A stretch of 56,650 nt of DNA from a virus, in IMG/VR virus record IMGVR_UViG_3300028189_000016, positions 1-56,650 of that record. One strand, given 5' to 3'. The notes under the pieces were generated by a model. That model searched no databases and was not told where the DNA came from. It was given only the letters and a program-made list of their open reading frames with translations. Numbering within the stretch: position 1 is the stretch's first letter; each line of letters starts with the position of its first letter. This document shows, piece by piece, positions 14,697-46,936 of the stretch. A program made the translations under genes and the position numbers.

Positions 14697-14734
14697 GCTT
14701 CTCCATAGATGATCTACACAATGGAGAATAAAAA

Positions 14735-17163: not shown

Positions 17164-17208
17164 ATCGACTCTTAGTATCAGTTTTTCTAATCAAAGGAGA
17201 TTCCAATC

Positions 17209-29771: not shown

Positions 29772-29793
29772 ATGGCTCTCCTTTCAAGAGATT

Positions 29794-29811
29794 ATAGATA
29801 AGGGGTTGTTC
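29794..29811 (-). promoter_or_regulatory. Class A promoter element (GTGACCCCTTATCTATA), variant
   Basis: The minus strand reads AACAACCCCTTATCTATA, 23 nt before the ATG at 29771. This is the leftmost of about 19 elements with consensus TGTGACCCCTTATCTATA between 29.8 and 46.9 kb. They lie mostly 23-90 nt upstream of genes, in the orientation of the gene. The 17-18 nt core is nearly invariant, more like the promoter of a single-subunit phage RNA polymerase or of an activator-dependent middle promoter than like a bacterial -35/-10 pair. This copy has TTG for TCA and is weaker. Confidence 0.45.
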
Positions 29812-29825
29812 CATAGGAGACTTAA

Positions 29826-30341
29826 CTACCCCCCAATCCTCTTTATTGCACCTAAAACCCTATGATGCTCTTCATCACTTAACTTAAATAGATTGTCAAG
29901 CACATCACTTGAAAGACCCTCAAGCCCATAAAGAGCAATGACCTCCTCTCCTGTCATTTGCGGATTAGAAAAGCACTCTTGCTCGACTCTAACCTTAGAC
30001 CATCCAAACATCTCCATACACACCTCTTTATGTGGTCTAAACACCTCTACTTTAGGTTCACTCTTAAATGCTGAACCCCAACCATTAAGATCCTGTACCA
30101 AATCAGTATAGTTCACCTTAGCCCTCTTCAAAACATGATGATGAAAAGAAATGCTCCCCCAATCACTCATTTCAAAGAACTTCCCTTCATAAGCTCCGCT
30201 ACCTACCCTCTCTTTTAACCAACCATGTATGTGGTTAAAGGTAATATCTGGATATAGGTCTTTAAAGTTAGGGTGGATCGTATACACCTTTGCATAAGGC
30301 ATTTTACGATTGTTGTCATGTGAGTATCTTATTAAACTCAT
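29826..30341 (-). CDS. Hypothetical protein
   Basis: A 171-residue protein with no recognised fold. It has a basic/aromatic N-terminus and a helical C-terminal third with Glu/Asp-rich turns (MTGEEVIALYGLEGLSSDVLDNLFKLSDEEHHRVLGAIKRI), which resembles a short helical DNA-binding or protein-binding bundle. No recognisable promoter element precedes it; a run of ten C (30466-30475) lies 125 nt upstream. Confidence 0.65.
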   Translation of the reverse strand: MSLIRYSHDNNRKMPYAKVYTIHPNFKDLYPDITFNHIHGWLKERVGSGAYEGKFFEMSDWGSISFHHHVLKRAKVNYTDLVQDLNGWGSAFKSEPKVEVFRPHKEVCMEMFGWSKVRVEQECFSNPQMTGEEVIALYGLEGLSSDVLDNLFKLSDEEHHRVLGAIKRIGG

Positions 30342-30484
30342 CTCGGTTCTCCTTTCAAGAGACTGTAAACGGGGGTTTCAAAATCAACCCCAAAAATTCC
30401 AAACTCAAATAATATACAGATTCACTTATCCAATATCGCTTTTTCAAAAACACTCATATATAAGACCCCCCCCCCTCTCTGGAC

Positions 30485-30721
30485 TTAACCTTTATACATA
30501 ATCTTGTAATCATGCTCCCCCATACGCTTGTATGACTCAATCTGCTCCGCATTCGCTTGCTCTATCTCATCCGAATCTCCCCAAAGAGTTAGCTCTTTGC
30601 CCCAATATCGCCCTAGCTTCAAGTATTCAGAAGAAGTCAGTTTTAATAAGTCTTCCACAGCTTCCTGTTTGGAGACTGGTAGTTCCAAGCCATGTCTCTT
30701 TATGTATTCTTCACAAGTCAT
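30485..30721 (-). CDS. Small hypothetical protein
   Basis: A 78-residue acidic helical protein (MTCEEYIKRHGLELPVSKQEAVEDLLKL...). A longer reading starts at 30757, but that ATG abuts a TATA-like sequence and has no ribosome site. The internal ATG at 30721 has a weak AGGGAAG site and lies 40 nt after a degenerate class A element, the usual distance, so I use it. Confidence 0.6.
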   Translation of the reverse strand: MTCEEYIKRHGLELPVSKQEAVEDLLKLTSSEYLKLGRYWGKELTLWGDSDEIEQANAEQIESYKRMGEHDYKIMYKG

Positions 30722-30760
30722 TTGTCTTCCCTGTATTGGTAAAGGTGGTTGAAACATGGT

Positions 30761-30779
30761 TATAGATCAAGGGATGTCA
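30761..30779 (-). promoter_or_regulatory. Degenerate class A element
   Basis: The minus strand reads TGACATCCCTTGATCTATA, 40 nt before the ATG at 30721. Only the CCCTT.ATCTATA half is kept, so the call is tentative. Confidence 0.25.
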
Positions 30780-30798
30780 TTTTGTATGCGTTTTCAAT

Positions 30799-30829
30799 AT
30801 GGGTTTTTGGGACTCCCCCGAAAACCCAT
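30799..30829. other. Intergenic RNA hairpin
   Basis: ATGGGTTTT...AAAACCCAT with an inner GGG/CCC pair forms a stem of about 12 bp around a short loop. No T-run follows on either strand, so a simple terminator is unlikely. It lies between the orphan class A element at 30904 and the next gene. Confidence 0.5.
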
Positions 30830-30903
30830 AGAGTTTTAGATGGGGTTCTGAGAGAATGTTGATTAACCCTAATCTTTGATGGCCTGTCTCCTCGTAGTAA
30901 TCA

Positions 30904-30922
30904 AATAGATAAGGGGTCACAA
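30904..30922 (-). promoter_or_regulatory. Class A element, stop codon embedded, orphan
   Basis: The minus strand reads TTGTGACCCCTTATCTATT. The TGA is the stop codon of the gene at 30917. The next start (30721) is 183 nt away, much more than usual, and a hairpin lies between. Confidence 0.55.
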
Positions 30923-31510
30923 TTCCTTAGATGCCTTAACTTTTTCTTTTAGCTGATTGATCTCTTTTAATAGCCGATCACGCTCACCTAGTAGGTGGTT
31001 ATTATTTTGGTAAAAGGCGTTGAGGTGGTTCAACATAGTCTCTTTAGGTACGCCTCGCTTTTTTAGGTAGAGGTCTTGAAAGGCAACCGCCTGCCATGTT
31101 CCATTTGGATTCAGACATTCGGTAAAGCAGACGACAGACTTAACTTCGCCTTGCACGACCTCACCAGTGTACGATTTGTAATGGTACAGATCTCCAGGTC
31201 TGGGTAGGTCAGAGCTAGAAAGTTTAGGGTCAAGATGAGCGACTTCGGGGTGGAGGGACTTAGTAGAGGGGTTGCTTTGTTCCTGCTCCTCCGATTGCGA
31301 TGCTTCGCAAACGAGCGACTCTTTGATCAAATCGAAGGGGTCTGCTTCGGCTGGGTTTCTAATCATGTCACCGTCAAGAATAAAGTCTCCGTTCTTAATG
31401 CCTTTGTCGAGGATCATCTTAAAACGAGCATCGCCCATTCTCTTAACGCCCAACTCCTGCTTCGCTACCTCTTTAGCTTCCTTGAGGTTAAGTCCGATCA
31501 ATGCTTTCAT
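30917..31510 (-). CDS. Hypothetical protein with C-terminal coiled coil
   Basis: A 197-residue protein. The N-terminal part (KEAKEVAKQELGVKRMGDARFKMILDKGIKNG) is helical and basic, and a middle of about 40 residues is low complexity. The region LPRPGDLYHYKSYTGEVVQGEVKSVVCFTE...WQAVAFQDLYLKKRG looks like a small SH3-like fold. The C-terminal 45 residues form a coiled coil (NHLLGERDRLLKEINQLKEKV). It shares a base (TAATG) with the gene upstream, so the two are coupled. Confidence 0.65.
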   Translation of the reverse strand: MKALIGLNLKEAKEVAKQELGVKRMGDARFKMILDKGIKNGDFILDGDMIRNPAEADPFDLIKESLVCEASQSEEQEQSNPSTKSLHPEVAHLDPKLSSSDLPRPGDLYHYKSYTGEVVQGEVKSVVCFTECLNPNGTWQAVAFQDLYLKKRGVPKETMLNHLNAFYQNNNHLLGERDRLLKEINQLKEKVKASKEL

Positions 31511-31884
31511 TACCAGTCTCTACTTTCTCGCCATTCATCATGGCTTACCATCGTTTGCATATCCTCATTAAACTGCCTTCGCAAGAGGGAGGTCTTAGTT
31601 CGGATAGTTTGGTGATCTCCCCATCCATTTATTTGATTTGGGTCATGATCCTCACCCCAACCTTGAGGGTTCTCTGATCGTAGGTTGATCCAAGATCCAA
31701 GAGCTTGGAGATACCCACTCACCTCATCGCTAAACTTACTGACCTCTGCCACCCACTCGCTAGGGGTAGGAGGAACATCAAGATCAGCAAAGGCTCGCTC
31801 GATCTCTCTCCACTCCCCACGATAAGGGTGAGGTAGGCTGTTGCGTATATTAGCGTATTGTTGTCGTTGTTGTTCAATGGTCAT
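31510..31884 (-). CDS. Hypothetical helical protein
   Basis: A 124-residue protein, mostly helical, with many Trp and Arg (WREIERAF, VAEVSKFSDEVSGYLQALGSWI, WGEDHDPNQINGWGD). No domain recognised. It is the first gene of the two-gene minus-strand unit that begins after the class A element at 31909, with an AAGGAGG site before the ATG. Confidence 0.65.
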   Translation of the reverse strand: MTIEQQRQQYANIRNSLPHPYRGEWREIERAFADLDVPPTPSEWVAEVSKFSDEVSGYLQALGSWINLRSENPQGWGEDHDPNQINGWGDHQTIRTKTSLLRRQFNEDMQTMVSHDEWRESRDW

Positions 31885-31908
31885 CTTGAACCTCCTTCTC
31901 TACCATTA

Positions 31909-31925
31909 TATATTTAAGGGGTCAC
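31909..31925 (-). promoter_or_regulatory. Class A element (AAATATA variant)
   Basis: The minus strand reads GTGACCCCTTAAATATA, 25 nt before the ATG at 31884 and one base after the TA of the upstream TAG stop. Confidence 0.6.
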
Positions 31926-32566
31926 TACTTCGTATTGCCCTTATGGTGAACGATGCAGTCATAGTGTACCTCCACCACAGACCCTACACGCTTGATCTTC
32001 TTGACCCCTCGCTCCTCTAACAGCTCGACCTTATAGTAGTTCCGACCCCATGACCCCCCGACCCCTACAACCTTAGCTCGTGTGCGTTGCCCCCCACCTG
32101 CTGGTGTGCCACTAAACACGATCTCATCACCGAGCTTGATCTCATTTTTGTTAGGTCGGTTATCAGCGACCCAATCCAACCGAACCAACTTGAGGAACCA
32201 GTTGCCAAGATGAGCATCGTTATGAGACTGGGGCTTATCGTACCCTCTCCAAGTATTATAAGGGTAGGTTATAGAGTTTGTACAGTTGCCATATAGACTC
32301 ACTGTAGACGCTCCATCCTTAGCCCATGTCAAGGTGAGGAAGAAGTCGCCAAACCCCTCCTTTCGGAGTACGAGTACCCTCTCCTCTTCTTTGGTATTTA
32401 GGCTTGTCTGAGCGACCGAGAATCCGATCTCCTCAGCTAGATCTGTAAAGAGTTTGGTGTGTCGGTCATACCACGACTGCCTTGACCCTTTGGTCTTGTA
32501 CGCAGTCTTGTGATGTGGTGTCGGGATCATCTTGCGTACCCCATTAACTTTTTGAGTCAGTGCCAT
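31925..32566 (-). CDS. Paralog-family protein fused to a C-terminal SH3/KOW-like domain
   Basis: A 213-residue protein. The start MALTQKVNGVRK and the segment LFTDLAEEIGF (about residues 38-48) mark it as a member of the LTxKxNG family. The family part ends with NWFLKLVRLDW at about residue 128. An extra 80 residues follow (LGDEIVFSGTPAGGGQRTRAKVVGVGGSWGRNYYKVELLEE...VHYDCIVHH), which look like a small beta barrel. The ATG at 32566 has AAAAGGAGA at the right distance; the earlier in-frame ATG at 32632 would run through the promoter element. Confidence 0.72.
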   Translation of the reverse strand: MALTQKVNGVRKMIPTPHHKTAYKTKGSRQSWYDRHTKLFTDLAEEIGFSVAQTSLNTKEEERVLVLRKEGFGDFFLTLTWAKDGASTVSLYGNCTNSITYPYNTWRGYDKPQSHNDAHLGNWFLKLVRLDWVADNRPNKNEIKLGDEIVFSGTPAGGGQRTRAKVVGVGGSWGRNYYKVELLEERGVKKIKRVGSVVEVHYDCIVHHKGNTK

Positions 32567-32597
32567 TAGCAGTCTCCTTTTAAGAGTTACAGTAGGG

Positions 32598-32615
32598 TAT
32601 ATATAAGGGGTCACA
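32598..32615 (-). promoter_or_regulatory. Class A element, divergent pair (minus)
   Basis: The minus strand reads TGTGACCCCTTATATATA, 32 nt before the ATG at 32566. It is back to back with the plus element at 32632. Confidence 0.65.
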
Positions 32616-32631
32616 GATTCTCTGTTACGCA

Positions 32632-32650
32632 TTGTGACCCCTTATTTATA
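32632..32650 (+). promoter_or_regulatory. Class A element, divergent pair (plus)
   Basis: TTGTGACCCCTTATTTATA, 64 nt before the ATG at 32714, separated from the minus copy by 16 nt. The leader between it and the gene contains a hairpin. Confidence 0.65.
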
Positions 32651-32663
32651 GGATAGTGTAAGA

Positions 32664-32688
32664 GGGGTGCAGAATAATCACGCACCCC
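32664..32688 (+). other. 5' leader hairpin
   Basis: GGGGTGC ... GCACCCC, seven G/C-rich base pairs with an 11 nt loop, lies 14 nt after the promoter element and 26 nt before the ATG at 32714. It would be near the 5' end of the transcript and may stabilise it. Confidence 0.55.
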
Positions 32689-32713
32689 ATCACTCCCAAA
32701 TGGAGAAGCCAAC

Positions 32714-33289
32714 ATGAGCTACTACCCCTCACTTCAAGACCTAAACTTCACCTCCGAGCAACTCACTGAGGCGATCCAACAAGACCTCAAAAAGTTGAAG
32801 TCAGCTAAGGCTTCACTCGAAGAAGCTAAGGCTCGCCTCCAATCCTCATCCTACGCAGACGCTGTAGAGTGTCAAGAGTGTGGCGGAGAAGGTCGGATAG
32901 GGCGTATGTTTCAGGTCGGATATGACGACTACGAAGCGGACACAGAACTGTGCGAGTGTTGTCTCCTTGAAGGGGTATACCCTTGGGATGTCAATCGGGA
33001 GTGGTTCGATGAGGAAGTGGCTAAGGCGAGCCTCGATCCAAACTTGGATGAGGACGAGCGAGAGGATGAGTTAAGAGATCTTCTTGAGGATCAGGCTTAC
33101 GACCTTGACCTCTCTGCTCCAGTGGAGGTCAAAGAGTGGAAACAAGCCTTACATCACTATAGCTTCCTTCCTTACAACCTCCACCAGAACCTATCCATTC
33201 TGAAAGACCACAACGAGACTGAGACCCCCTCATGGGTAGACAAGGCTCTGATAGAGGTCGAAGCACTAATCGAAAAGGAGAACCCATGA
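32714..33289 (+). CDS. Acidic zinc-finger hypothetical protein
   Basis: A 191-residue acidic protein. The N-terminal 35 residues form a coiled coil (TEAIQQDLKKLKSAKASLEEAKARL). CQECGGEGRIGR...DTELCECC then offers two CxxC-like knuckles, typical of a DnaJ-type zinc ribbon (CxxCxGxG). Two Glu/Asp-rich helices follow. The CxxCxGxG signature is known in chaperones, but only one full copy exists here, so I do not call it a chaperone. The stop overlaps the next start (ATGA). Confidence 0.68.
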   Translation: MSYYPSLQDLNFTSEQLTEAIQQDLKKLKSAKASLEEAKARLQSSSYADAVECQECGGEGRIGRMFQVGYDDYEADTELCECCLLEGVYPWDVNREWFDEEVAKASLDPNLDEDEREDELRDLLEDQAYDLDLSAPVEVKEWKQALHHYSFLPYNLHQNLSILKDHNETETPSWVDKALIEVEALIEKENP

Positions 33290-33828
33290 AGCAAGTCGAG
33301 ATAAAACCTAGTGAGTTCCTCGCTCACCTCAACGCCCCTTTCTTCGGGGCGACACATGACCATAACGGTGCCGCCCTTCCGTCCAAGAGAACCAAGTCCT
33401 GGGTGTTCACTCTTGGCAACGAGCGTAAGGACAACCACCTCACCTACAAGGCGACTCGTCTAAAGGGGCAGACCCTCAATGAACCTGTTGAAGTGAGCCT
33501 TAACCTACATGGACTTAACAGCTTGTATGACCCTGTGTATCAGACCATCGGGACAGTGGACTCTAAAGGTACGCTCCGAATCCAATACGGACTGAACCTC
33601 AATCAGCCCCGACTCGACATCGGTTACGAAACCCTCGTCTGGCTCTTAGGAGTATCTACTGACCAAGACTTCGAGATGCCCGATAATCTACAGATCATGT
33701 GTGAAGCCAAGTGTGCGAGATGTGCTCTCCCCCTCACTAACCCTTCGAGCTTAAAACAAGCTATCGGCCCCATCTGTCGTAAGAAGATCAATAAGAGTAG
33801 TCCAGCTCATAAAGACATCAGTTATTGA
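33286..33828 (+). CDS. DUF6011-like zinc-knuckle protein, copy 1
   Basis: A 180-residue protein. The start at 33286 follows AAAAGGAGAA and overlaps the upstream stop. The first 130 residues form a beta-rich domain (SWVFTLGNERKDNHLTYKATRLKG). The C-terminal region has CARCALPLTNPSSLKQAIGP followed by ICRKK, the pattern C..C...L.(N/D)P.S...G.GP.C.KK of DUF6011, a short zinc knuckle common in phage and plasmid proteins. It is a paralog of the gene at 35275: both begin with a matched F...L.APF.G..H...G.ALPS segment. Confidence 0.75.
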   Translation: MKQVEIKPSEFLAHLNAPFFGATHDHNGAALPSKRTKSWVFTLGNERKDNHLTYKATRLKGQTLNEPVEVSLNLHGLNSLYDPVYQTIGTVDSKGTLRIQYGLNLNQPRLDIGYETLVWLLGVSTDQDFEMPDNLQIMCEAKCARCALPLTNPSSLKQAIGPICRKKINKSSPAHKDISY

Positions 33829-33892
33829 GAGTCCTTAGTAGCCCAAATCATATAATAAATAGTACTCTTAAATATGATTCAAGGACACTAAA

Positions 33893-34180
33893 ATGACTAG
33901 AGAAATGATTACCACCGACCTTATCCAGTTGCTTCGTAAGTCAAGGGAGACACGCTCAAGCTGGATTCCAATGTGGGAAGACTTAGCAAGAGGTCATTAC
34001 CGAGACTTGAGAAATCGATGGATGAACGCTAACGACAAAACCCTCACTGAGTGGAGAGAGATTGAAAAGTCCGCACAAGTTCTTATGTGGCAAGAGGTAG
34101 GAACTAACTACGCAGAGGATTGGCTCAAGTTTGCGTATAACCTTGTCATGGTCAAAGAGGACGCTCAGATTGCCCTCTAA
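33893..34180 (+). CDS. Small hypothetical protein
   Basis: A 95-residue basic helical protein, Trp-rich (SSWIPMWEDLARGHYRDLRNRWMNANDKTLTEWREIEK). It has no recognised domain. It is monocistronic, with AT-rich sequence upstream (ATATAATAAATAG) that might hold a promoter but does not match either element class clearly. Confidence 0.62.
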   Translation: MTREMITTDLIQLLRKSRETRSSWIPMWEDLARGHYRDLRNRWMNANDKTLTEWREIEKSAQVLMWQEVGTNYAEDWLKFAYNLVMVKEDAQIAL

Positions 34181-34246
34181 GGGCATTAAACAGATCAAGG
34201 TGGGCGAGTGCTAGGGCTAAGGCTCGAACTGCTCTCTAAGGCTCTC

Positions 34247-34648
34247 TCAGAGCTTCCAAGTAGTGATGCGTGAGTCCTCGCTCCAAGTGATTGTGAGCGT
34301 TGTCTTTCTCTGAGAGGTCATTGCTTTACCCTTACGAGCAGACCACTTGGTGACGGTTGGTCGGCTGATCTCGATGCCGAAGACCCTGACGCAGGACTCG
34401 ACCTTAGCGAACTCCTGTGCGATTGCCCCCACGATAGCCGAGTGATCGTTCGGGTCGCAGACGAGATCATAAGTGCCTGTTGTTTGTGTGAGTGGTGCAT
34501 CTACATCCGTGTCATCTCCGAAGAATGTCTTCTGAAAGCCATAGTTCATGTTGGTCAGAGTAGCAATGGCTGTCGGGATGACACGCTTGAAAGTATCATC
34601 GTAAGTCTCGAAGCGATTGAGGGCGTTGTTGAGGATGATGTCGATCAT
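34247..34648 (-). CDS. Hypothetical protein
   Basis: A 133-residue protein with a helical N-terminus and a beta-rich C-terminal half (CVRVFGIEISRPTVTKWSARKGKAMTSQRKTTLTITWSED). No family was recognised. It has an AAGGAGAAA site and a class A element 40 nt upstream. Confidence 0.65.
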   Translation of the reverse strand: MIDIILNNALNRFETYDDTFKRVIPTAIATLTNMNYGFQKTFFGDDTDVDAPLTQTTGTYDLVCDPNDHSAIVGAIAQEFAKVESCVRVFGIEISRPTVTKWSARKGKAMTSQRKTTLTITWSEDSRITTWKL

Positions 34649-34687
34649 GGTTGGTTTCTCCTTGTCAGAGTGTGGTTGATATGGGGG

Positions 34688-34706
34688 TATAGATAAGGGG
34701 TCACAA
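34688..34706 (-). promoter_or_regulatory. Class A element
   Basis: The minus strand reads TTGTGACCCCTTATCTATA, 40 nt before the ATG at 34648. Confidence 0.7.
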
Positions 34707-34727
34707 TCCTAAAGAGGAAGTGAGTTC

Positions 34728-35270
34728 CTATTTAGAAAGCAAAGGCCAGCCATCTTGCCAGTTGTCGATGAGAGATCTCGACTCCTGATTCTTCATCATC
34801 GTGGAAACTACATACTCACTCTCCATAGGCACACCTAGATATTCCCACTCATCTGGGATCACTCCAAGCACCCTGTCCATCAAGTCTTCCTGTGGCGAAT
34901 CTCCTGCAAGGAAGCGTTGGGTAGACTCTGGGTCAGTGCTGAGAGTGACATCCACGATCTTACCGTCAAGGGTGATCCAGGCATGGAGGATAGGCATAAA
35001 CCCAGTCCACACATAGCCCTCGTGATACTTGACCCTCTGGTGGACTCGGTAGCTGTCGGCAAGGGTCATCATCTGAGCATTATGGAAACACTGCTTAGGA
35101 AGGCACTCAATCATTCCTGTGATCATTTTGAGGTACGAGTACTGCTCCTCTGTTAAAGTCTCGCTAGAGGTCATCTCAGTACCCTTACCGAGTACATACT
35201 CTTCCTGGGTGAGAAGATCTGGTCTTTGACCTAGAATCTCAGCTCTCTGTTTTAGGTGTTCTCTTATCAT
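34728..35270 (-). CDS. Possible Cys-His-Asp (papain/transglutaminase-like) protein
   Basis: A 180-residue protein. Three motifs in order suggest a papain-like catalytic core: Cys61 at the start of a helix (PKQCFHNAQMM), His96 in PILHAWITLDG, and Asp107 in KIVDVTL. The pattern C...N...YxEGYv...HAW...DGxivDxT is typical of transglutaminase-like or NlpC/papain-like folds. All three residues are placed as expected, but overall similarity is low. A host-modifying or protein-processing role is possible. The gene ends upstream of the 34688 element and starts 4 nt before the stop of the gene at 35275, so the two are coupled. Confidence 0.62.
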   Translation of the reverse strand: MIREHLKQRAEILGQRPDLLTQEEYVLGKGTEMTSSETLTEEQYSYLKMITGMIECLPKQCFHNAQMMTLADSYRVHQRVKYHEGYVWTGFMPILHAWITLDGKIVDVTLSTDPESTQRFLAGDSPQEDLMDRVLGVIPDEWEYLGVPMESEYVVSTMMKNQESRSLIDNWQDGWPLLSK

Positions 35271-35274
35271 TCTC

Positions 35275-35799: not shown

Positions 35800-35854
35800 T
35801 TTGTTCTCCGTTTGGGAGTTAGGGTTGGTGAGGATTGTTCCCCTTAGGCTATGG

Positions 35855-35873
35855 TATAAATAAGGGGTCACAA
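35855..35873 (-). promoter_or_regulatory. Class A element
   Basis: The minus strand reads TTGTGACCCCTTATTTATA, 56 nt before the ATG at 35799. Confidence 0.7.
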
Positions 35874-35903
35874 TTCTTAAATACACCACCTAAACCCTCG
35901 ACT

Positions 35904-36716: not shown

Positions 36717-36747
36717 GGGAGTCTCCTTTCAAGAGTTATCTACTAGG

Positions 36748-36764
36748 ATATTTAAGGGGTCACA
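36748..36764 (-). promoter_or_regulatory. Class A element, stop codon embedded
   Basis: The minus strand reads TGTGACCCCTTAAATAT, 32 nt before the ATG at 36716. The TGA is the stop codon of the gene at 36760. Confidence 0.65.
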
Positions 36765-37905: not shown

Positions 37906-37942
37906 AAGGCGACTCCTTTTTGTTTTGTGGCTGATATAGTCT

Positions 37943-37960
37943 TATAGATAAGGGGTCACA
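37943..37960 (-). promoter_or_regulatory. Class A element of the triple cluster (minus)
   Basis: The minus strand reads TGTGACCCCTTATCTATA, 38 nt before the ATG at 37905. Two plus-strand copies lie within the next 95 nt. Confidence 0.72.
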
Positions 37961-37988
37961 GTTTTGAACAACCCTCACAGATTATTTT

Positions 37989-38006
37989 TGTGACCCCTTA
38001 AATATA
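37989..38006 (+). promoter_or_regulatory. Class A element of the triple cluster (plus, distal)
   Basis: TGTGACCCCTTAAATATA, 83 nt before the ATG at 38089. Confidence 0.62.
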
Positions 38007-38037
38007 AGACCTAGTGTGAAGGGTAAACATATAAAAG

Positions 38038-38055
38038 TGTGACCCCTTATCTATT
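38038..38055 (+). promoter_or_regulatory. Class A element of the triple cluster (plus, proximal)
   Basis: TGTGACCCCTTATCTATT, 33 nt before the ATG at 38089. Confidence 0.7.
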
Positions 38056-38088
38056 ACATCTCATAACCCACTCTCAAAGGAGAACCTC

Positions 38089-39225: not shown

Positions 39226-39228
39226 GGT

Positions 39229-39246
39229 CGTGACCCCTTATCTATT
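39229..39246 (+). promoter_or_regulatory. Class A element
   Basis: CGTGACCCCTTATCTATT, three bases after the upstream TAA stop and 33 nt before the ATG at 39280. Confidence 0.65.
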
Positions 39247-39279
39247 AACTCTTAACACCACTCCCAAAGGAGACTACCT

Positions 39280-39768: not shown

Positions 39769-39780
39769 AGGAGAACCACA

Positions 39781-40410: not shown

Positions 40411-40441
40411 CCACTTCTACTTCGTAAAAGGAGAACTGACA

Positions 40442-40858
40442 ATGAATATCAATCAACTAATCAACACAATGAATGACTCTACCCTCACACTCAATGAAAG
40501 AACCGAAGCGGCAAGTAAACTATGGGAAGCACAGAACAGACTCAACAAGTCTCTAAAGGGATTCAAGAGTGAACTGATCGAAAAGGCTGACGACCAAGAC
40601 CTCATCATCGAATCCACATCGGGTAAATACACGACTAAGGTTGAGAAGCAACCCCCCACACCTAAGCTAGAGTCTGTAGACATCTTAGACCTTGAAGAGG
40701 CTATCGGGGAAGACCTCTTCGATCAATATATCGCTCATAGTTATACGATCCGTTGGAGCGAGTTTAGAGATGCTCCCCAAGAGGTGAAGGAAGCGTTCTA
40801 CGCTGTGCCCAACCTCGAAATGATGCAGACCTACCAAGTTAAGTTTAAGAGGTCGTGA
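40442..40858 (+). CDS. Hypothetical protein
   Basis: A 138-residue acidic protein with a helical N-terminus (residues 1-45) and a small domain with many Asp/Glu (SVDILDLEEAIGEDLFDQYIAHSYTIRWSEF). Its TGA stop is inside the following class A element. No family was recognised. Confidence 0.65.
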   Translation: MNINQLINTMNDSTLTLNERTEAASKLWEAQNRLNKSLKGFKSELIEKADDQDLIIESTSGKYTTKVEKQPPTPKLESVDILDLEEAIGEDLFDQYIAHSYTIRWSEFRDAPQEVKEAFYAVPNLEMMQTYQVKFKRS

Positions 40859-40870
40859 CCCCTTATCTAT
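40854..40870 (+). promoter_or_regulatory. Class A element, stop codon embedded
   Basis: CGTGACCCCTTATCTAT contains the TGA stop of the upstream gene and lies 23 nt before the ATG at 40894. Confidence 0.65.
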
Positions 40871-40893
40871 GAGTTAGTGGGAGGAGATAAATA

Positions 40894-41628
40894 ATGATAT
40901 ATCAGAACAAACGCAGAGACTTTCACAAAGCAATCTTAGCAGGTAAGACTCCTGCTGAGATCGCAGAGGAGAATGGCCTCACTGAGCTTGATGTAGTTCA
41001 GACCCTACGACACCCCAAGCCTAAAATTGCATGGGCTAACTATAACCACTTAAAAGTACCAATCCCGATGGACGAAATCATAGATGCGTATCACGAGGGT
41101 ACGCTTGAGGTCTTAGGGAAAATTTATGGGGTGACTAAACAAACAATATATAAGCGACTCCCACAAGAGTTGAGGAAGTCAGTAAAACGAGGCCCCAAAC
41201 CTAAAGGTCGTAGACCCACAGAGTTCAAACTGATCACCCAAGAAGAAAAAGATCGGATTGTAGATCGCTATTATCGTTCGGGTCGCAAACTCTCCGCCTG
41301 TGGAACCACATACAAGATCGCTAAAGAGGTCTTAACCGAACAAGAGATCTCTTTCCTAAAGAAAGGAGAACAAATACCACCCAAAGATATGGTCACTTTA
41401 CTTGACTGTCTCTTAGAAAAGACCGCTCAAGGTATCATCGAACCTCAAGTTATGTACCATTGGAGTCGGAAACTTTATGAGTTTAAGACCAATAGCCCTC
41501 ATGTATGGAAAGGGCAGATGCTTGACTGGCTCTTAGGGAATAAAATCTCTCAAGAGATCATCCCTCATATAAATGAAGCTATCGAAGAGATCATTAAACT
41601 ACGAGGGTATGAAGATGCTGACAGTTAA
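40894..41628 (+). CDS. Putative DNA-binding protein with two HTH motifs
   Basis: A 244-residue basic protein. Two helix-turn-helix-like segments are visible: AGKTPAEIAEENGLTELDVV (about residues 16-35) and LEVLGKIYGVTKQTIYKRLP (about 69-88). A basic linker (RKSVKRGPKPKGRRPTEF) and a helical C-terminal half follow. This is the layout of resolvase-type or phage regulators. Position at the head of the 40.9-43.5 kb unit makes it a candidate regulator of the middle genes, perhaps of the class A elements; that is inference. Its ribosome site is GGAGGAGA. Confidence 0.68.
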   Translation: MIYQNKRRDFHKAILAGKTPAEIAEENGLTELDVVQTLRHPKPKIAWANYNHLKVPIPMDEIIDAYHEGTLEVLGKIYGVTKQTIYKRLPQELRKSVKRGPKPKGRRPTEFKLITQEEKDRIVDRYYRSGRKLSACGTTYKIAKEVLTEQEISFLKKGEQIPPKDMVTLLDCLLEKTAQGIIEPQVMYHWSRKLYEFKTNSPHVWKGQMLDWLLGNKISQEIIPHINEAIEEIIKLRGYEDADS

Positions 41629-41941
41629 GCAAGACGGTAAGAGGATTGTTAATCCCGAACTATATGAAGTTGATGTGGTTGATGCCTCTAAGGACTCTCT
41701 GTTCAAAATACTCGCTGTGGAGTGTGGCTTTCAAGCATCAAAACAAATCGAAGTGTGGGCACATACAAAAGAGGGGGACTTCAAAGTGAGGCTTGACTCG
41801 GATAATAACATCTTCCTTTTCAAGTACAAACACCTTGCAGACAAGTACGAGTACCCTAGCAAAAGCACTAACAGAGAGTTCATCTCAAATTTCTTAGAGT
41901 CTTCTCGAAACTTTTTCAGCAAGATACAGCGATCAGAATAG
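41615..41941 (+). CDS. Member of ~110-residue paralog family (LTxKxNG)
   Basis: A 108-residue protein that starts MLTVKQDGKRIVN, with LAVECGF at about residue 39 and a closing helix (FISNFLESSRNFFSKI). It overlaps the end of the regulator-like gene. The ATG at 41615 has the CGAGGG site at the right distance; in-frame starts at 41573 and 41609 are less likely because they lose the family N-terminus. Confidence 0.7.
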   Translation: MLTVKQDGKRIVNPELYEVDVVDASKDSLFKILAVECGFQASKQIEVWAHTKEGDFKVRLDSDNNIFLFKYKHLADKYEYPSKSTNREFISNFLESSRNFFSKIQRSE

Positions 41942-41957
41942 AGGGGGGGTAATATAA

Positions 41958-42368
41958 ATGGATGTCCAAATATGTAGTCAATGTAACTGGCCTATGGAGG
42001 ATAGCCATTTTAACATCTGTTGGACTTGCTGGAGGGATACGCAAGGGCATAAGAGGATAAAGTCGGATCTAAAATATGAAGCCCTACAAAAGATCATACA
42101 TAAACTTCTACAAGAAGAAACGCCCCCCGACCATCAAGCCAACATCCTAAAGGTTGAAAACCACCAGCTTAAAATACAGATGAACCAGCTTAAAATGCAG
42201 ATTTCTTGCTTGATTCATGCACGAGATAATTCCCCTAAGCATCCTCTTGATCAGAACCTTATCAAAACCCTCCTCATGTTCTGTCACCCAGATAAAAACC
42301 AAACACGAGAAGTAGAAGCTGGAGAAATCACTAAAACTTTACTCAAAATGAGGGAGAAGAAAAAATGA
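41958..42368 (+). CDS. Zinc-finger protein with a minimal J-domain motif
   Basis: A 136-residue protein. The N-terminal CSQCNWPMEDSHFNICWTCW gives two CxxC pairs, a small zinc ribbon. A coiled coil spans about residues 55-85 (LKVENHQLKIQMNQLKMQI). The C-terminus holds LIKTLLMFCHPDKNQ, with the HPD motif of J-domains between two short helices, followed by EITKTLLKMREKKK. A real J-domain has about 70 residues; here only helix II, HPD and helix III are seen, so it may recruit host DnaK or only mimic it. The SD is G-rich (GGGGGGG). Confidence 0.68.
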   Translation: MDVQICSQCNWPMEDSHFNICWTCWRDTQGHKRIKSDLKYEALQKIIHKLLQEETPPDHQANILKVENHQLKIQMNQLKMQISCLIHARDNSPKHPLDQNLIKTLLMFCHPDKNQTREVEAGEITKTLLKMREKKK

Positions 42369-42439
42369 AGACCACTACGAGAAAAGATACGAGAAAGGAC
42401 TTTAAGATTGAAGATAATGGAGAGGTGAAATTCAGATGA
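42365..42439 (+). CDS. Tiny ORF, 24 residues
   Basis: An ATG overlaps the upstream stop (AAATGA), and the frame encodes a 24-residue basic peptide ending just inside the next start (AGATGA). There is no independent support beyond the double overlap, which suggests translational coupling. Confidence 0.25.
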   Translation: MKTTTRKDTRKDFKIEDNGEVKFR

Positions 42440-42750
42440 CTCTCACTAAGATAGAAAATGGAAAGCGGGTTTGGCTTGATGTCCAAATCAAAGATGATAA
42501 AGCAATCCACCTCGCCCTCGTTAATGAGTTGGGTTTTGAGTGCGAAGAAGATGAAGATGGGAATCTTGAGTTTTACAGGTTTTTTGATGGAGGTGGCATA
42601 GGGGTCAGCAAAAACTATGGCCGTTGGACGATCATTCACAGACATACTCAGGTTAAGTTGAAAAGCAGACATACCCTGTTCGATCAGATTAGGGAGGTCT
42701 GGGAGATCGAAGCTGAGGATAGAGAAAATGCTAAAGGTAGGGTGTGGTAA
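42436..42750 (+). CDS. Member of ~110-residue paralog family (LTxKxNG)
   Basis: A 104-residue acidic protein: start MTLTKIENGKRVWLDV, LVNELGF near residue 30, and the end helix LFDQIREVWEIEAEDRE. It is the copy with the clearest family N-terminus and C-terminal helix. Function unknown. It overlaps the small downstream gene's upstream start option by a few bases. Confidence 0.75.
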   Translation: MTLTKIENGKRVWLDVQIKDDKAIHLALVNELGFECEEDEDGNLEFYRFFDGGGIGVSKNYGRWTIIHRHTQVKLKSRHTLFDQIREVWEIEAEDRENAKGRVW

Positions 42751-42751
42751 A

Positions 42752-43120
42752 ATGAACACATACCTAAGTAGAGACAGCGAGGGGCGAATGATCCCCAACC
42801 CCTCATTAATGACCAACATAGAAATGACCCAACACCTATCCCCCGCTGATTGGAAAGATGTTTTTGCGGAGATTGGGTTTGTAGACGACCAAGACCCTTA
42901 TCCTAAGCATAACGCAAATTTATATCCAGACAGAGTTCACTACAAACACGACAAGGACTCCAACCTTCGCCTTAGCTTTGACAGTAGTATAAATCTGGTC
43001 ACTATCTCCACAGATACCACTGAAGAAATCTATATTTACCCTGTTGATTCTAACTCTTTAAGCTATGCAATTGGACTCTTGTTAAAAACCATACGAGGTC
43101 TATATGAAACTCACTGTTGA
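42752..43120 (+). CDS. Probable divergent paralog-family member
   Basis: A 122-residue protein. I place the start at MNTYLSRDSEGRMI, because it matches the family pattern (short beta, polar/Gly turn, Arg), rather than at 42728. It keeps FAEIGF and the closing LLLKTIRGLYETH helix. The middle is rich in Asp/Ser and beta strands. The next gene starts before its stop (17 nt overlap). Confidence 0.65.
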   Translation: MNTYLSRDSEGRMIPNPSLMTNIEMTQHLSPADWKDVFAEIGFVDDQDPYPKHNANLYPDRVHYKHDKDSNLRLSFDSSINLVTISTDTTEEIYIYPVDSNSLSYAIGLLLKTIRGLYETHC

Positions 43121-43553
43121 ACTCGTCCCTCAATCCTCATGGGGCAATAACCTACGCTCTGAAGCCAACCTCTCCAAAGCCCAATGGGATAAGCTACGCA
43201 AAACCTCTTACAAGCAAGCAGGATACAAATGTGAGATCTGTGCAGGTAAAGGATCTAAGTGGCCTGTTGAGTGTCATGAGATCTGGCACTATGATGACCA
43301 GAACAAAACCCAAACGCTCAAAGGTCTGATTTCTCTCTGTCCTACCTGCCACAAAGCAAAACACATTGGAAGAACTCTATCTGTCGAACCACCAGAGGTT
43401 CAATCGCAGGTGATCCAACAACTCGCTTCGATCAATAACCTATCTCCCCAAGAGACTGAGGACTACATCGTTCAAGTCTTTGAACAATGGAACGAGAGAT
43501 CCAAACACCAATGGACGCTAGACCTCTCATGGCTTACTGAGGGTTGTTGTTAG
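43104..43553 (+). CDS. HNH endonuclease-like protein
   Basis: A 149-residue protein with a HNH/treble-clef core: a zinc pair CEIC (Cys43, Cys46), then VECHEIWHYDDQNKTQTLKG (His58, Glu59) and LCPTCHKAKHIGR (Cys79, Cys82, His83, His87). The four cysteines hold the fold and the HE...H residues are the metal-binding catalytic set of HNH enzymes. The preceding WGNNLR...WDKLRKTSYKQAGYKCEIC is the usual N-terminal lead of a widespread HNH-like phage family. It may be a homing or packaging-type nuclease or a host-DNA nicking enzyme; no intron lies nearby. The last residues overlap the convergent gene by 20 nt. Confidence 0.8.
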   Translation: MKLTVELVPQSSWGNNLRSEANLSKAQWDKLRKTSYKQAGYKCEICAGKGSKWPVECHEIWHYDDQNKTQTLKGLISLCPTCHKAKHIGRTLSVEPPEVQSQVIQQLASINNLSPQETEDYIVQVFEQWNERSKHQWTLDLSWLTEGCC

Positions 43554-44073
43554 AGTCTCGATCCACAGTCTCGTCATGCTCTTGGATCTCATGACGGATG
43601 TAGCGTGGGAGATTGAGGTTCTGCTCGATGCAGTTGCGTATTGCAGTGAACAGGTGTCTTGCTTCTTTAAGGGGGTAGTGTCCATCAACGATGACACCTC
43701 TCACATATTGGCGACCGTCCTCTGAGAAGAAGAAGGGGCTACCATCTCTGCGAGTGAGTCTCCCACTGTAGTTAGCTGGTCGGTTAGTGTTGCGACCCTC
43801 AAGAGAAGCGATGGTGCTAGGGATAAGACCCTTAGACCCGAACAGAACCTTTTGGACATCCTTCTCGGTGCAAACCACACCTGCTTCGTTGATGAGGCGA
43901 GTAGCTTGCTCAAGGCTCGGTGTTGAACCCACCCAAGCGTTGAGGCGATTCAACCTCTCCTGCAACACATCTTTATAAGAGATGGTCATATCCAAGATGA
44001 CGCTGTACTTGTTGTCTCCGTTGATTCTTGACAGTTTTACTCTTGGGTGGTTGGTTGGGGTTGAGTTAGTCAT
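43534..44073 (-). CDS. Hypothetical protein
   Basis: A 179-residue protein. The start at 44073 follows ATGGAGAA; a longer frame to 44139 crosses the promoter. A helical middle (DVLQERLNRLNAWVGSTPSLEQATRLINEAG) and a C-terminal helix (PLKEARHLFTAIRNCIEQNLNLPRYI) flank a basic stretch. No family recognised. Confidence 0.65.
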   Translation of the reverse strand: MTNSTPTNHPRVKLSRINGDNKYSVILDMTISYKDVLQERLNRLNAWVGSTPSLEQATRLINEAGVVCTEKDVQKVLFGSKGLIPSTIASLEGRNTNRPANYSGRLTRRDGSPFFFSEDGRQYVRGVIVDGHYPLKEARHLFTAIRNCIEQNLNLPRYIRHEIQEHDETVDRDSNNNPQ

Positions 44074-44123
44074 GGTGGTTCTCCATTGAGAGTGGTGGGG
44101 CTTGATTGCCTTCATGTTAGGTA

Positions 44124-44141
44124 ATAGATAAGGGGTCACAA
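44124..44141 (-). promoter_or_regulatory. Class A element (minus), divergent pair
   Basis: The minus strand reads TTGTGACCCCTTATCTAT, 51 nt before the ATG at 44073. The plus copy lies 38 nt away. Confidence 0.68.
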
Positions 44142-44179
44142 TATGACTAAGTGCTTGAAATATCTAAGGAAACAAAAAG

Positions 44180-44197
44180 TGTGACCCCTTATCTATA
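44180..44197 (+). promoter_or_regulatory. Class A element (plus), divergent pair
   Basis: TGTGACCCCTTATCTATA, 50 nt before the ATG at 44248, followed by a leader hairpin. Confidence 0.7.
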
Positions 44198-44205
44198 CCA
44201 TTATA

Positions 44206-44221
44206 TGAGGAACGATCCTCA
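44206..44221 (+). other. 5' leader hairpin, copy 1
   Basis: TGAGGAACGATCCTCA makes a perfect 6 bp stem with an ACGA loop. The same 16 bases stand at 46945-46960, also about 10 nt after a class A element. Confidence 0.6.
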
Positions 44222-44247
44222 ATAACTTACTCCCAATGGAGACTTTC

Positions 44248-44505
44248 ATGAACGCACTTTTAACCTACTCAGAGGCTTCTAACAGAATCAGCGACATCAT
44301 CAGCTCACTCAGCTTCGCCCTAAAGATGGGAGAGGCTGAGGCAAAGCCCACAGTTAAGGCTCTGCGACTTGAGGTGTCTGCTTACTTCAAATCTCTCAAT
44401 CGTGAGAACAAACTCGATGTCCTCCACTCTTATGAGGCGAAGAACAAGGCAGAGCTGATCGAGAACGCTCTAACAGAGATGTTTGAGCGAGTCGGGGGAG
44501 CGTAA
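44248..44505 (+). CDS. Small helical hypothetical protein
   Basis: An 85-residue helical protein with low complexity; the ATG at 44248 (ATGGAGA site) is preferred to 44236. No motif was recognised. It is monocistronic between class A elements. Confidence 0.62.
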   Translation: MNALLTYSEASNRISDIISSLSFALKMGEAEAKPTVKALRLEVSAYFKSLNRENKLDVLHSYEAKNKAELIENALTEMFERVGGA

Positions 44506-44508
44506 GCT

Positions 44509-44526
44509 GTAACCCCTTAAATATAT
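44509..44526 (+). promoter_or_regulatory. Class A element, variant
   Basis: GTAACCCCTTAAATATAT has GTAA in place of GTGA. It lies 86 nt before the ATG at 44613, with a small CCTAG/CTAGG stem (44527-44545) in between. Confidence 0.45.
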
Positions 44527-44612
44527 CCTAGTGTGAGAGGCTAGGGAACAATCAACCAGCAATCATATAATCATTTCAAACTGCAAACCACATCTCTTGA
44601 AAGGAGACTCCC

Positions 44613-45218
44613 ATGCAGAACATCACAGCAACACCAAACACAACTTTAACTTTCACTACAACCAAGAGTGGTAAGGCTGACCTCAAGAAAGACGGAGGCA
44701 CTGTTCGTGGTCGCCACACTGTTGAGGTCAGCATGACCGTGGGGGTCGACCACAAAACCATCGCGGCTCTTGATTGTGCGAAGGTCGAGGGTGCTGACCG
44801 AGACACGCTCAAACTCGCACTTGAAGGTCGTGGGCTTGTGTTCACCGACCTTGACTTCAACCTCGCCCTAGAGGGTGACCAACCTCGCAAAAAGGGTGTG
44901 CTGACAGCGTTGCGACAGAGTGCTACAGGGTCTAACGATGACAACTCTCATCTTGAGGCTTACAGCGATCATCCAGCAGGTGTGAAGGGAGTGAGCATTC
45001 ACGATGGGACAGGTGATGTCCATGTTCGTGGAATCATCATCAATGAAAAGGTCTTAACCGAAGATCCCAATGGATCTGCGAGAAAGACTAAGAGTGGGCT
45101 TCATGTCCAACTGAAGAACGCTATCTCAAGTGAACTTGATCTAACATCTCGCAAGTGGAGACAGTACAAGCTCCCTGCTTCAGCGACTGTGAATGGGATT
45201 GACAACCCTACCATCTAA
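44613..45218 (+). CDS. Beta-rich hypothetical protein
   Basis: A 201-residue protein, rich in Gly, Thr, Lys and Asp; repeated strand-like segments (TTLTFTTTKSGKADLKKDGG, VEVSMTVGVDHKTIAAL) suggest a beta sandwich, with a short C-terminal helical part. Base composition is G/C-richer than the flanks. The strong AAAGGAGA site suggests high expression. A possible DNA-binding, SSB-like role is only a guess. Confidence 0.68.
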   Translation: MQNITATPNTTLTFTTTKSGKADLKKDGGTVRGRHTVEVSMTVGVDHKTIAALDCAKVEGADRDTLKLALEGRGLVFTDLDFNLALEGDQPRKKGVLTALRQSATGSNDDNSHLEAYSDHPAGVKGVSIHDGTGDVHVRGIIINEKVLTEDPNGSARKTKSGLHVQLKNAISSELDLTSRKWRQYKLPASATVNGIDNPTI

Positions 45219-45222
45219 AAAC

Positions 45223-45240
45223 TGTGACCCCTTATCTATA
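45223..45240 (+). promoter_or_regulatory. Class A element
   Basis: TGTGACCCCTTATCTATA, four bases after the upstream stop and 31 nt before the ATG at 45272. Confidence 0.7.
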
Positions 45241-45271
45241 ACTCTCTGTAATACTCACTAAGGAGAACATC

Positions 45272-46375
45272 ATGGCTACGAACAAGTATCAAGCAGTTAT
45301 GACCGAAATCGCAAATCAACTCCCCTCACTGATCGCTGGTGACCCAGGCCACTCCTCTCGACACTATGAGAGGTTGTTCCTTGCGAATAATCCCACTCTC
45401 AACACTTTGGGCGATCAAATCCGAAAGGGTAAGTTTCGCAAAACTGTCCTTGAGGATAAGGTCAATGATGTGATCATTGATCTGCATCATAAACTTCAAG
45501 TACAGAAAGTGGGGGTCAAGTATTACCCTTTGGGTTTTGACTTGTCTACAATCCCTACAACAAAGGCTAAGAAGGCTAAGGCTAAAAAGGTTGCGACTGT
45601 GGTCGAAACTGTGGTCGAGCCTACCCTTGAGGTCGAGGAAACTCTAATCGAGGTTGAGGTGGACAACCCTGCTGTCATCGAAGCCCACATCGACACCGAG
45701 ACTCAAGAACTTGTGGAGAATGTCGGTGGGTCTAAGGACTACCGCATCTCTCTTGATAAAGTAGAGGATGGGTACATCACATCAAGTGTGCAGGTAAGCA
45801 CGACTACACTTGAGCCTGTTGAGGTTGAAGAGACTGTAGAACCTAATCTTATTGAAGAGACTCAAGAACCTAATCTTATTGAAGAGACTCAAGAAGAGGT
45901 CGAGGTTAAAGAGACTCCAGTTGCAGAGCAGGTTGATAACGAGCCTGTAGTGGTTCATAAATATGACCTCAAGGCACTTCGCCAGAGTGCCTCTTTTGAC
46001 CCCATCGCAATCACCATAAGAAAAGTCACAGGAGAATATGAGGTGTACCGAGACATGGAGAATCGAAACATCGTTTTGACTCAAGTAGATCGGAAGGACT
46101 ATGAGGTAATCTCTGTGGATGTGGATCACGACCACTTGAAGAGTGTTAATCCTGTTCTATCCACATACGCCTCGCAAGCAATCTCTGATTTTGAGAAAGC
46201 TAGTAATCATAAAGAGGGTTGCACGAAGGTTGTGAGGGCACTTGTGTCATGTTTGATAAAATGTCAACATACCGATGATTTTGGGGGGTTTGTCGAGGAG
46301 TGTGTAAACCCAGTTTGCCCTCTCAAGACGATTTGGGGTGGGGGGGCTACTAATGTCAACCCGAACGCTTCATAA
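45272..46375 (+). CDS. Acidic modular hypothetical protein with Glu-rich linker
   Basis: A 367-residue protein. Residues 1-100 are a helical domain (ITEIANQL-type start, HSSRHYERLF). A Lys/Ala stretch (TKAKKAKAKKVA) follows, then a 100-residue Glu/Val-rich linker with the repeat EPNLIEETQ (two copies), and a C-terminal domain with four or five cysteines (CTKVVRALVSCLIKCQHTDD, CVNPVCPL) that may bind a metal. The linker is disordered in type. The neighbour at 46353 also has an ECLNQVCP segment like ECVNPVCP, so the two may share a C-terminal motif. Confidence 0.68.
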   Translation: MATNKYQAVMTEIANQLPSLIAGDPGHSSRHYERLFLANNPTLNTLGDQIRKGKFRKTVLEDKVNDVIIDLHHKLQVQKVGVKYYPLGFDLSTIPTTKAKKAKAKKVATVVETVVEPTLEVEETLIEVEVDNPAVIEAHIDTETQELVENVGGSKDYRISLDKVEDGYITSSVQVSTTTLEPVEVEETVEPNLIEETQEPNLIEETQEEVEVKETPVAEQVDNEPVVVHKYDLKALRQSASFDPIAITIRKVTGEYEVYRDMENRNIVLTQVDRKDYEVISVDVDHDHLKSVNPVLSTYASQAISDFEKASNHKEGCTKVVRALVSCLIKCQHTDDFGGFVEECVNPVCPLKTIWGGGATNVNPNAS

Positions 46376-46577
46376 AGAAATGCCACTCACTCTCTGTGGC
46401 GAGAGTCAAATAGAGGAGTGCTTAAATCAAGTTTGTCCAACCTTAACCAGAGTGGAAGTGAGTAATAAACTACTCACTTTGGTTTTTGATTCTCAAACAA
46501 TTGTACTACCCCTTACTAGTACGATGACATGGGGGCAACTAATCAAATCCCTAAAGAGAAAGGGTTTATCTAAATGA
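46353..46577 (+). CDS. Small hypothetical protein
   Basis: A 74-residue protein, MSTRTLHKEM at the start, IEECLNQVCPTLTRVEVSNK in the middle. It begins 22 nt before the upstream stop. The C-terminus is basic (SLKRKGLSK). The match ECLNQVCP with the upstream protein's ECVNPVCP is worth noting. No function known. Confidence 0.55.
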   Translation: MSTRTLHKEMPLTLCGESQIEECLNQVCPTLTRVEVSNKLLTLVFDSQTIVLPLTSTMTWGQLIKSLKRKGLSK

Positions 46578-46825
46578 GCCTCACTAGAAAAGACCTACAA
46601 GAATCCATCTTGATCGTGATTGAAAAAGATGGGTCACACCATATTAAACTACCCAACAACGATGAACTAGAGTTTGAACCAAAGGCTTATAAAGCTATGG
46701 TCAATACCTTAACAGTGCTTGACTCACCGAGCTTTGTACTCAGGGCTTTTCTTTGGGTCGAGCGTAAACTCCAGTATCTTAATGTAAGGCTCTTTGGATC
46801 TGATAAATTAACAAGCAAAGGATAA
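46574..46825 (+). CDS. Small hypothetical protein
   Basis: An 83-residue protein, ATGA overlap with its upstream neighbour. The segment MVNTLTVLDSPSFVLRAFLWVERKLQYLNVRLF is amphipathic. No domain recognised. Confidence 0.58.
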   Translation: MSLTRKDLQESILIVIEKDGSHHIKLPNNDELEFEPKAYKAMVNTLTVLDSPSFVLRAFLWVERKLQYLNVRLFGSDKLTSKG

Positions 46826-46830
46826 TAACA

Positions 46831-46923
46831 ATGCTCGACACTATCTTAGACATCGGAACGGTTGCAGGAATCTGCTTCATCGGGATCTTCCTCGTCAGTT
46901 ATTATCGCATGAAGGATCTGTGA
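46831..46923 (+). CDS. 30-residue single-pass membrane micro-protein
   Basis: The frame encodes a 30-residue peptide, MLDTILDIGTVAGICFIGIF followed by LVSYYRMKDL: one clear membrane helix and a short basic tail. An AAAGGATAA site lies upstream, and its TGA stop is inside the class A element that follows. Small phage membrane peptides of this sort often act in lysis control or exclusion; unproven. Confidence 0.55.
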   Translation: MLDTILDIGTVAGICFIGIFLVSYYRMKDL

Positions 46924-46936
46924 CCCCTTATCTATA
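46919..46936 (+). promoter_or_regulatory. Class A element, stop codon embedded
   Basis: TGTGACCCCTTATCTATA contains the TGA stop of the membrane micro-protein and lies 43 nt before the ATG at 46980. Confidence 0.7.

Follow-up and report, generated by a model that had tools for sequence, protein, structure and literature searches.

The window analysed in this work, a virus record of 56,650 bases, carries in its middle region, shortly before nearly all gene groups, a recurrent 17-nucleotide (nt) element, here called class A, which is almost certainly a virus-specific promoter, that is, a "start reading here" switch with a code that evolves quickly among these viruses. The reading that we favour, with a probability of roughly 0.55, is that class A would be a phage-specific promoter for the host RNA polymerase, formed by a -10-like core and by a box recognised by a fast-evolving, lineage-specific phage factor.

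The class A element is real. A matrix scan of the window returned 17 sites scoring 21-31.5 bits and one degenerate copy at 11.3 bits, and left beyond them a single intragenic match of 8.9 bits. First-order Markov random sequences gave mean numbers of matches of 0.55 at 8 bits or more, 0.025 at 12 or more and 0 at 15 or more, and no match of at least 21 bits occurred in 40 of them. A sequence-only reading of the window had counted 18 clear or near copies and one degenerate copy; the scan corrects this count to 17 plus one, while the extent of 29.8-46.9 kb essentially stands. The variants TCTATA, TTTATA and AAATATA are present as then described, and the scan also bears out the absence of the element from the left 28 kb, which carries a second element (class B), and from the right end. 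All 17 strong sites are intergenic, although the gene calls of the analysis make 92.7% of the window coding; the equal density of the motif inside genes that would speak against a promoter was thus not seen. The sites point at start codons, as had been claimed, since 16 of the 17 have one on the same strand 39-104 nt from the first base of the box. The sequence GTGACCCC is carried by 16 of the strong copies. The class A sites of the matrix scan are given below, with positions inside the element counted from the G of the box as position 0.

29793..29809, minus strand: degenerate class A copy ACAACCCCTTATCTATA (11.3 bits), preceding the gene 29421-29771
30904..30920, minus strand: class A GTGACCCCTTATCTATT, the exception in distance, with its start codon about 163-232 nt downstream
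31909..31925, minus strand: class A GTGACCCCTTAAATATA, with ortholog sites in the related records G001 and G006
32598..32614, minus strand: class A GTGACCCCTTATATATA, divergent with 32634
32634..32650, plus strand: class A GTGACCCCTTATTTATA, with leader hairpin GGGGTGC...GCACCCC and ortholog sites
34688..34704, minus strand: class A GTGACCCCTTATCTATA
35855..35871, minus strand: class A GTGACCCCTTATTTATA
36747..36763, minus strand: class A GTGACCCCTTAAATATC, preceding a VWA-domain gene
37943..37959, minus strand: class A GTGACCCCTTATCTATA, in the divergent promoter region that was compared across genomes
37990..38006, plus strand: class A GTGACCCCTTAAATATA, divergent with 37943 and upstream member of a tandem pair
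38039..38055, plus strand: class A GTGACCCCTTATCTATT, preceding the CobS-like AAA ATPase gene
39230..39246, plus strand: class A GTGACCCCTTATCTATT
40855..40871, plus strand: class A GTGACCCCTTATCTATG, with the start codon 39 nt from the box start and a ribosome site between
44123..44139, minus strand: class A GTGACCCCTTATCTATT, divergent with 44181
44181..44197, plus strand: class A GTGACCCCTTATCTATA
44509..44525, plus strand: class A GTAACCCCTTAAATATA, the only strong copy of the window with A at position 3
45224..45240, plus strand: class A GTGACCCCTTATCTATA
46920..46936, plus strand: class A GTGACCCCTTATCTATA, with leader hairpin GAGGAACGATCCTC

As a fragment, the window covers about one seventh of a huge-phage genome similar to G006. 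Its large terminase (22696-25818, plus strand), whose gene is split by an intein bearing a LAGLIDADG domain, is 87% identical to that of the IMG/VR record G001 (226.7 kb), 80% to that of G006 (375.7 kb) and 63% to that of LR745208.1 (W01), a 485-kb uncultured phage. The window genes 11375-11563 and 11567-12463, which are neighbours, match the two opposite ends of G006, and this record is therefore taken as a near-complete, permuted genome. Several relatives have a shorter terminase gene, apparently without the intein.

In these relatives the class A element is abundant, and its copies change in concert. A 16-nt class A pattern with at most one mismatch, searched on both strands, is present in 32 copies in G001 and 52 in G006, and reversed-pattern controls in both gave 0 copies. 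The 11-nt core has 40 copies in G001 (36 intergenic) and 62 in G006 (59 intergenic), and a same-strand start lies within 130 nt of 34 and 51 of them, respectively. Every one of these 102 sites has GTAACCCC, as against GTGACCCC in 16 of the 17 window copies, a difference of a single letter; G026, with a sigma gene 89% identical, likewise has GTAACCCC. For 14 of the 17 sites in the window, a class A-like element also precedes the ortholog of the downstream gene in G001 or G006. All copies change together while the sites stay, as a shared trans-acting reader would predict, and the concerted change of copies between relatives is that of a promoter family with a dedicated trans-factor.

Between lineages the promoters of orthologous genes differ strongly, other promoters with C-rich boxes taking the place of class A. 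In the window, G001 and G006, class A stands in the region from which the AAA gene and its neighbour diverge; the orthologous region has TTATCCCAA-N-CTTATTA in G012, CCCCC-N-(T/C)ATATAA in G008, CCCCC-N-TTTGATAA in G002 and CTAA-N-CCGGTTAGG in G016. The pattern of each lineage recurs in its own genome, mostly close before starts (15 of 15 copies in G008, 13 of 13 in G002, 23 of 28 in G012, 6 of 11 in G016 and, for CTAAA-N14-16-GCCGATAGG, 18 of 29 in W01, with 0-1 in reversed-sequence controls), counts that describe rather than test, the gapped patterns having been built post hoc from the orthologous promoters. A single ungapped de novo motif model for G008, G002 and G012 was rejected because it blurs the second class. 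The W01 copies often follow a conserved GATTTC and precede a conserved leader.

The anatomy of the element was read from a logo of the 102 sites of G001 and G006. Positions -1 to 16 read (C/T)GTAACCCCTTAT(C/T)TATA, and there is no conservation upstream of position -2, so that the -35 element which a sigma-70 promoter has 16-18 nt upstream of its -10 is absent. That the element belongs to a phage-specific promoter, and not to a classical -35/-10 sigma-70 one, is well supported. A weaker conserved block follows at positions 18-31, and in it T23 (72%) and a purine at 24 (88%) form a pyrimidine-purine step. The base after TATA (position 17) is distributed as A30 C10 G31 T28, and neither an initiating G nor a conserved purine was found directly after TATA in the 102 sites.

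In the tightest sites, whose start codon is at positions 39-42, the ribosome-binding site occupies about 27-34, which requires the RNA to start before about position 26. Class A leaders contain hairpins with the left arm at 22-30 in 18 cases, against 3.5 expected, a number reached in none of 200 dinucleotide shuffles; in the same type of comparison, class B leaders presented no such excess. The hairpin sequences vary by site, as in GAGGAACGATCCTC and GGGGTGC...GCACCCC, with the pairing kept. Short hairpins stand at the presumed 5' end of class A transcripts, for example at 46945-46960 and 32660-32690. Taken together, the room needed for the Shine-Dalgarno sequence, the 5' hairpins and the pyrimidine-purine step place the most likely transcription start near position 24, some 8 nt downstream of TATA. 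This start would make TATA (positions 13-16) -10-like, which would fit a TATAAT-like sigma-70 -10 about 7 nt before the start, and would place GTRACCCC at about -24 to -17. The sequence-only reading had named 5' ends inside or just after TATA as what would support its idea; the leader evidence puts the probable start about 8 nt after TATA. A different assignment, in which block 2 (TAGTGT at positions 20-27) would be the -10 and GTRACCCC the -35, was rejected: the RNA of the shortest sites would then lack its ribosome-binding site, and the leader hairpins would be cut.

The box and the -10 also appear as two modules that are read separately, because the distance between them differs inside a single genome as well as from one genome to another, which speaks against a rigid contiguous recognition. 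G006 has promoters with TCTATA directly after the box and several in which TCATATAA follows it and TATA is displaced by about 2 nt. The orthologous promoters of G028, whose sigma protein is 78% identical, have TGACACCC or ACACCCC and a longer gap to CTATAA. By this spacing and by the start evidence, the "activator box fused to a -10" offered earlier as one option is the best fit. At 44509-44570, and at its orthologs in G006 and G001, a copy of TCATATAA (class C) stands about 50 nt after class A, which suggests tandem promoters.

Class B, TTAATAGTTTATTTATA / TTaATAGTTTaTTTATAa, is found in the window mainly at 0.3-28.9 kb, so that there is little overlap between the territories of the two classes. 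Both share the core TTAT[CT]TATA, written TTATNTATA at positions 8-16 of class A. At 12 bits or more, class B has 10-25 sites per 100 kb in G006, G008, G012, G002 and G010, of which about 80-93% are intergenic; at that threshold it is absent from G016 and W01. Its sites in the window are the following.

296..313, plus strand: class B (14.2 bits)
2799..2816, plus strand: class B TTTGTAGTTCCTTTATAT
3789..3806, plus strand: class B TTAATAGTTTATTTATAG
8439..8456, plus strand: class B TTTGTAGACTTTTTATAA
10652..10669, plus strand: class B TTTATAGTCTATTTATAT
13334..13351, plus strand: class B TTAATAGTTTCTTTATAC
14680..14697, plus strand: class B TTTGTAGTTCGTTTATCG
17147..17164, plus strand: class B TTAATACTCTGTTTATAA
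18284..18301, plus strand: class B TTAATAGTCTATTTATAC
26315..26332, minus strand: class B TTGATAGTTTATTTATAG
28875..28892, minus strand: class B GTTATAGTTTTTTTATAT

Class B sites are spread along the part of the window that holds RecA, PhoH and the terminase, and in G006 a class B site precedes a baseplate gene. The genes after class A encode the CobS-like AAA protein, VWA proteins and small proteins without assigned function, and a helicase in G006. We infer from this gene content that class A may serve early or middle expression and class B later or general expression. A phage-encoded, glutamine synthetase-like gene lies at 347-1369 of the window.

The possible readers of these promoters were searched with protein profiles. 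No T7-type polymerase (PF00940) was detected in the 13 records searched, window included, nor in G026, G028 and G010; the T7 control gave 1e-110, and N4-type or very divergent enzymes are beyond the reach of this profile. No beta' subunit was found in the relatives by PF00623 or PF04998, a search in which the phiKZ control responds weakly and a divergent enzyme could be missed. The MotA-like activator suggested by the sequence-only reading was also sought, together with AsiA (PF09114, PF09010), and neither was found, with positive T4 controls. Its other suggestion, to look for an alternative sigma factor, gave a result in the relatives: exactly one sigma-like gene is present in nine of the 11 related records, and it is lacking only in G001 and the window, which are fragments. 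In G006 it is a single-copy gene for a protein of 201 amino acids that resembles sigma factors of the extracytoplasmic function (ECF) type (L076:18172-18777, minus strand). Relatives of the protein occur at 44 loci in IMG/VR, on contigs of up to 618 kb, and the family matches sigma-H (E 4e-9) and, more weakly, the PHROG sigma family 1740. Its predicted model has two domains, with a mean predicted local distance difference test score (pLDDT) of 82 and a predicted template modelling score (pTM) of 0.44. Sigma factors make up most of the top structural matches, although the scores are modest (best E 0.005) because the domain arrangement of the model is not fixed. G006 also encodes, about 6 kb from the sigma gene, a 189-amino-acid protein with several tandem helix-turn-helix repeats (211579-212148, or L076:11579-12148, minus strand), a possible regulator.

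Class B is kept in genomes whose sigma protein shares 46-57% identity with the one of G006; the class A box, by contrast, already differs in G028, at 78% identity. The sigma-like protein thus seems to follow class B more closely than class A, which would make class B its better candidate target. For this reason a separate, faster-evolving factor for GTRACCCC is preferred. In the resulting mechanism, host core RNA polymerase would transcribe from class A; the right half of the element (TTATNTATA, positions 8-16) would be -10-like and melted, with RNA starting about 8 nt after TATA, and the left half, GTRACCCC, would be the recognition box of the lineage-specific phage factor, in the preferred version a small DNA-binding activator working with a sigma factor. 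The transcripts would tend to open with a short 5' hairpin. Class A would drive a separate regulon of small genes, AAA/VWA proteins and, in relatives, the helicase, plausibly early or middle in infection, and packaging, recombination and some tail genes would use class B (TTAATAGTTTATTTATA). We infer the start site, the use of the host polymerase, the activator and the timing; the motif and its positions, the concerted change, the retention at orthologs, the leader hairpins, class B, the sigma-like gene of the relatives and the lack of a recognised RNA polymerase gene are observations.

Some points weigh against this mechanism. Among 67 proteins specific to the class A lineage, several have helix-turn-helix motifs but none is convincing as the reader of the box, and the clearest candidate, the G006 protein at 211579-212148, is poorly conserved. 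The sigma gene of the window's own phage lies outside the fragment. The hairpin shuffle test leaves part of the G-rich consensus at positions 27-31 in place. Finally, a box at -24 to -17 is nearer the start than known activator boxes such as that of MotA.

It is also conceivable, though we consider it doubtful, that the ECF-like sigma protein itself reads the whole of class A on the host core RNA polymerase, as gp55 of phage T4 does with a contiguous late promoter, with classes A and B as versions of one promoter sharing TTATNTATA. The common core TTAT[CT]TATA, the conserved single-copy gene with two sigma domains and the lack of RNA polymerase genes in the records searched agree with this, as does the likely use, by jumbo phages without RNA polymerase, of their own sigma factors with the host enzyme at phage-specific promoters (PMC13282480). 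However, at 78% sigma identity the class A box of G028 (TGACACCC, longer spacing) has already changed, and class B remains fixed at 46-57%; one sigma factor with a fixed and a drifting target needs an extra factor.

Recognition of class A by a host sigma factor, primary or alternative, with each lineage adopting the promoter of its own host, seems improbable. It would account for the strong differences between orthologous promoters, for the TATAA-like -10 elements of several lineages and for the W01 form CTAAA-N14-16-GCCGATAGG, which we take to resemble the flagellar sigma-28 consensus. Nevertheless, neither the class C TCATATAA-like sites nor the TATAA sites of any genome tested have an excess of TTGACA -35 sequences upstream, and we know of no host sigma consensus matching GTRACCCCTTATNTATA.

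A divergent single-subunit phage RNA polymerase of the SP6, T7 or N4 kind, starting directly after TATA, is very unlikely. The contiguous 17-nt block ending in TATA, which had led the sequence-only reading to this comparison, is superficially SP6-like, but no PF00940 match occurs in the near-complete G006, in G001, in W01 or in other relatives, position 17 lacks a conserved G or purine, the box-TATA spacing is flexible, and the hairpins begin 5-13 nt after TATA. Equally little credence is due to GTRACCCC as a phage repressor operator or a DNA-replication or partition site outside the promoter proper, for which the divergent pairs 32598/32634, 37943/37990 and 44123/44181 could speak, since the box is not symmetric, has a fixed orientation to the start codon and a near-fixed distance to the -10-like element, and is followed by the same-strand starts of 34/40 G001 and 51/62 G006 copies.

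Among known systems, class A would work most like a T4 middle promoter, in which a phage box (that of MotA, acting with AsiA) replaces the -35, the sigma-70 -10 is read by the host RNA polymerase and a temporal class of genes is driven. It departs from that model in the sequence and position of the box, at about -24 to -17 and not near -30, and in that MotA/AsiA homologues were not detected in the relatives. T4 late promoters, which depend on gp33 and the sliding clamp (gp45) and are read by gp55 at the contiguous TATAAATA, are likewise contiguous, without a -35 and linked to a phage sigma factor with no detectable phage RNA polymerase, and a phage-encoded protein of the sigma family is present in the relatives, not in the window fragment. 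Class A differs from them in sequence and length (17 nt with a C-rich half), and class B is the closer parallel. SP6/T7 promoters share with class A the contiguous 17-nt block ending in TATA and differ from it in their polymerase gene, of which no counterpart was found, in the initiating G, in the spacing, flexible in class A, and in the start, which in class A probably lies about 8 nt further downstream.

Jumbo phages with sigma factors but without RNA polymerase have been described as "group 2" (PMC7824862), and a 2026 review states that RNA polymerase is missing from most huge phages, which probably turn the host enzyme to phage-specific promoters through sigma factors of their own (PMC13282480). 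The relatives studied here resemble these phages in having a sigma homologue and no RNA polymerase, the host enzyme being proposed in both cases. No descriptions of such promoter sequences for uncultured lineages, to which the present one belongs, were found in this literature or in searches on the motifs and on the gp79 sigma factor that appears among the structural matches. The moraphages, mostly freshwater jumbo phages, also have a sigma factor, glutamine synthetase genes in some members and no RNA polymerase (PMC12619734); they are likened to the present lineage by gene content, and no promoter analysis was found in that paper.

Phage-specific promoters are expected in jumbo phages that encode a sigma factor and lack RNA polymerase; the abutting box, the 5' hairpins and the replacement of the code lineage by lineage are unusual. 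Tentatively, class A may represent a new architecture, in which a C-rich specificity box directly abuts the -10 and is read by a fast-evolving phage factor together with the host RNA polymerase, its code being rewritten in each lineage at the same orthologous promoters while the class B code stays fixed. With two promoter families, their territories, a likely start site and one conserved sigma candidate laid out, a reconstituted assay becomes possible, and the replacement of the code at orthologous genes, lineage by lineage, provides a natural series for the co-evolution of promoters and their recognisers.

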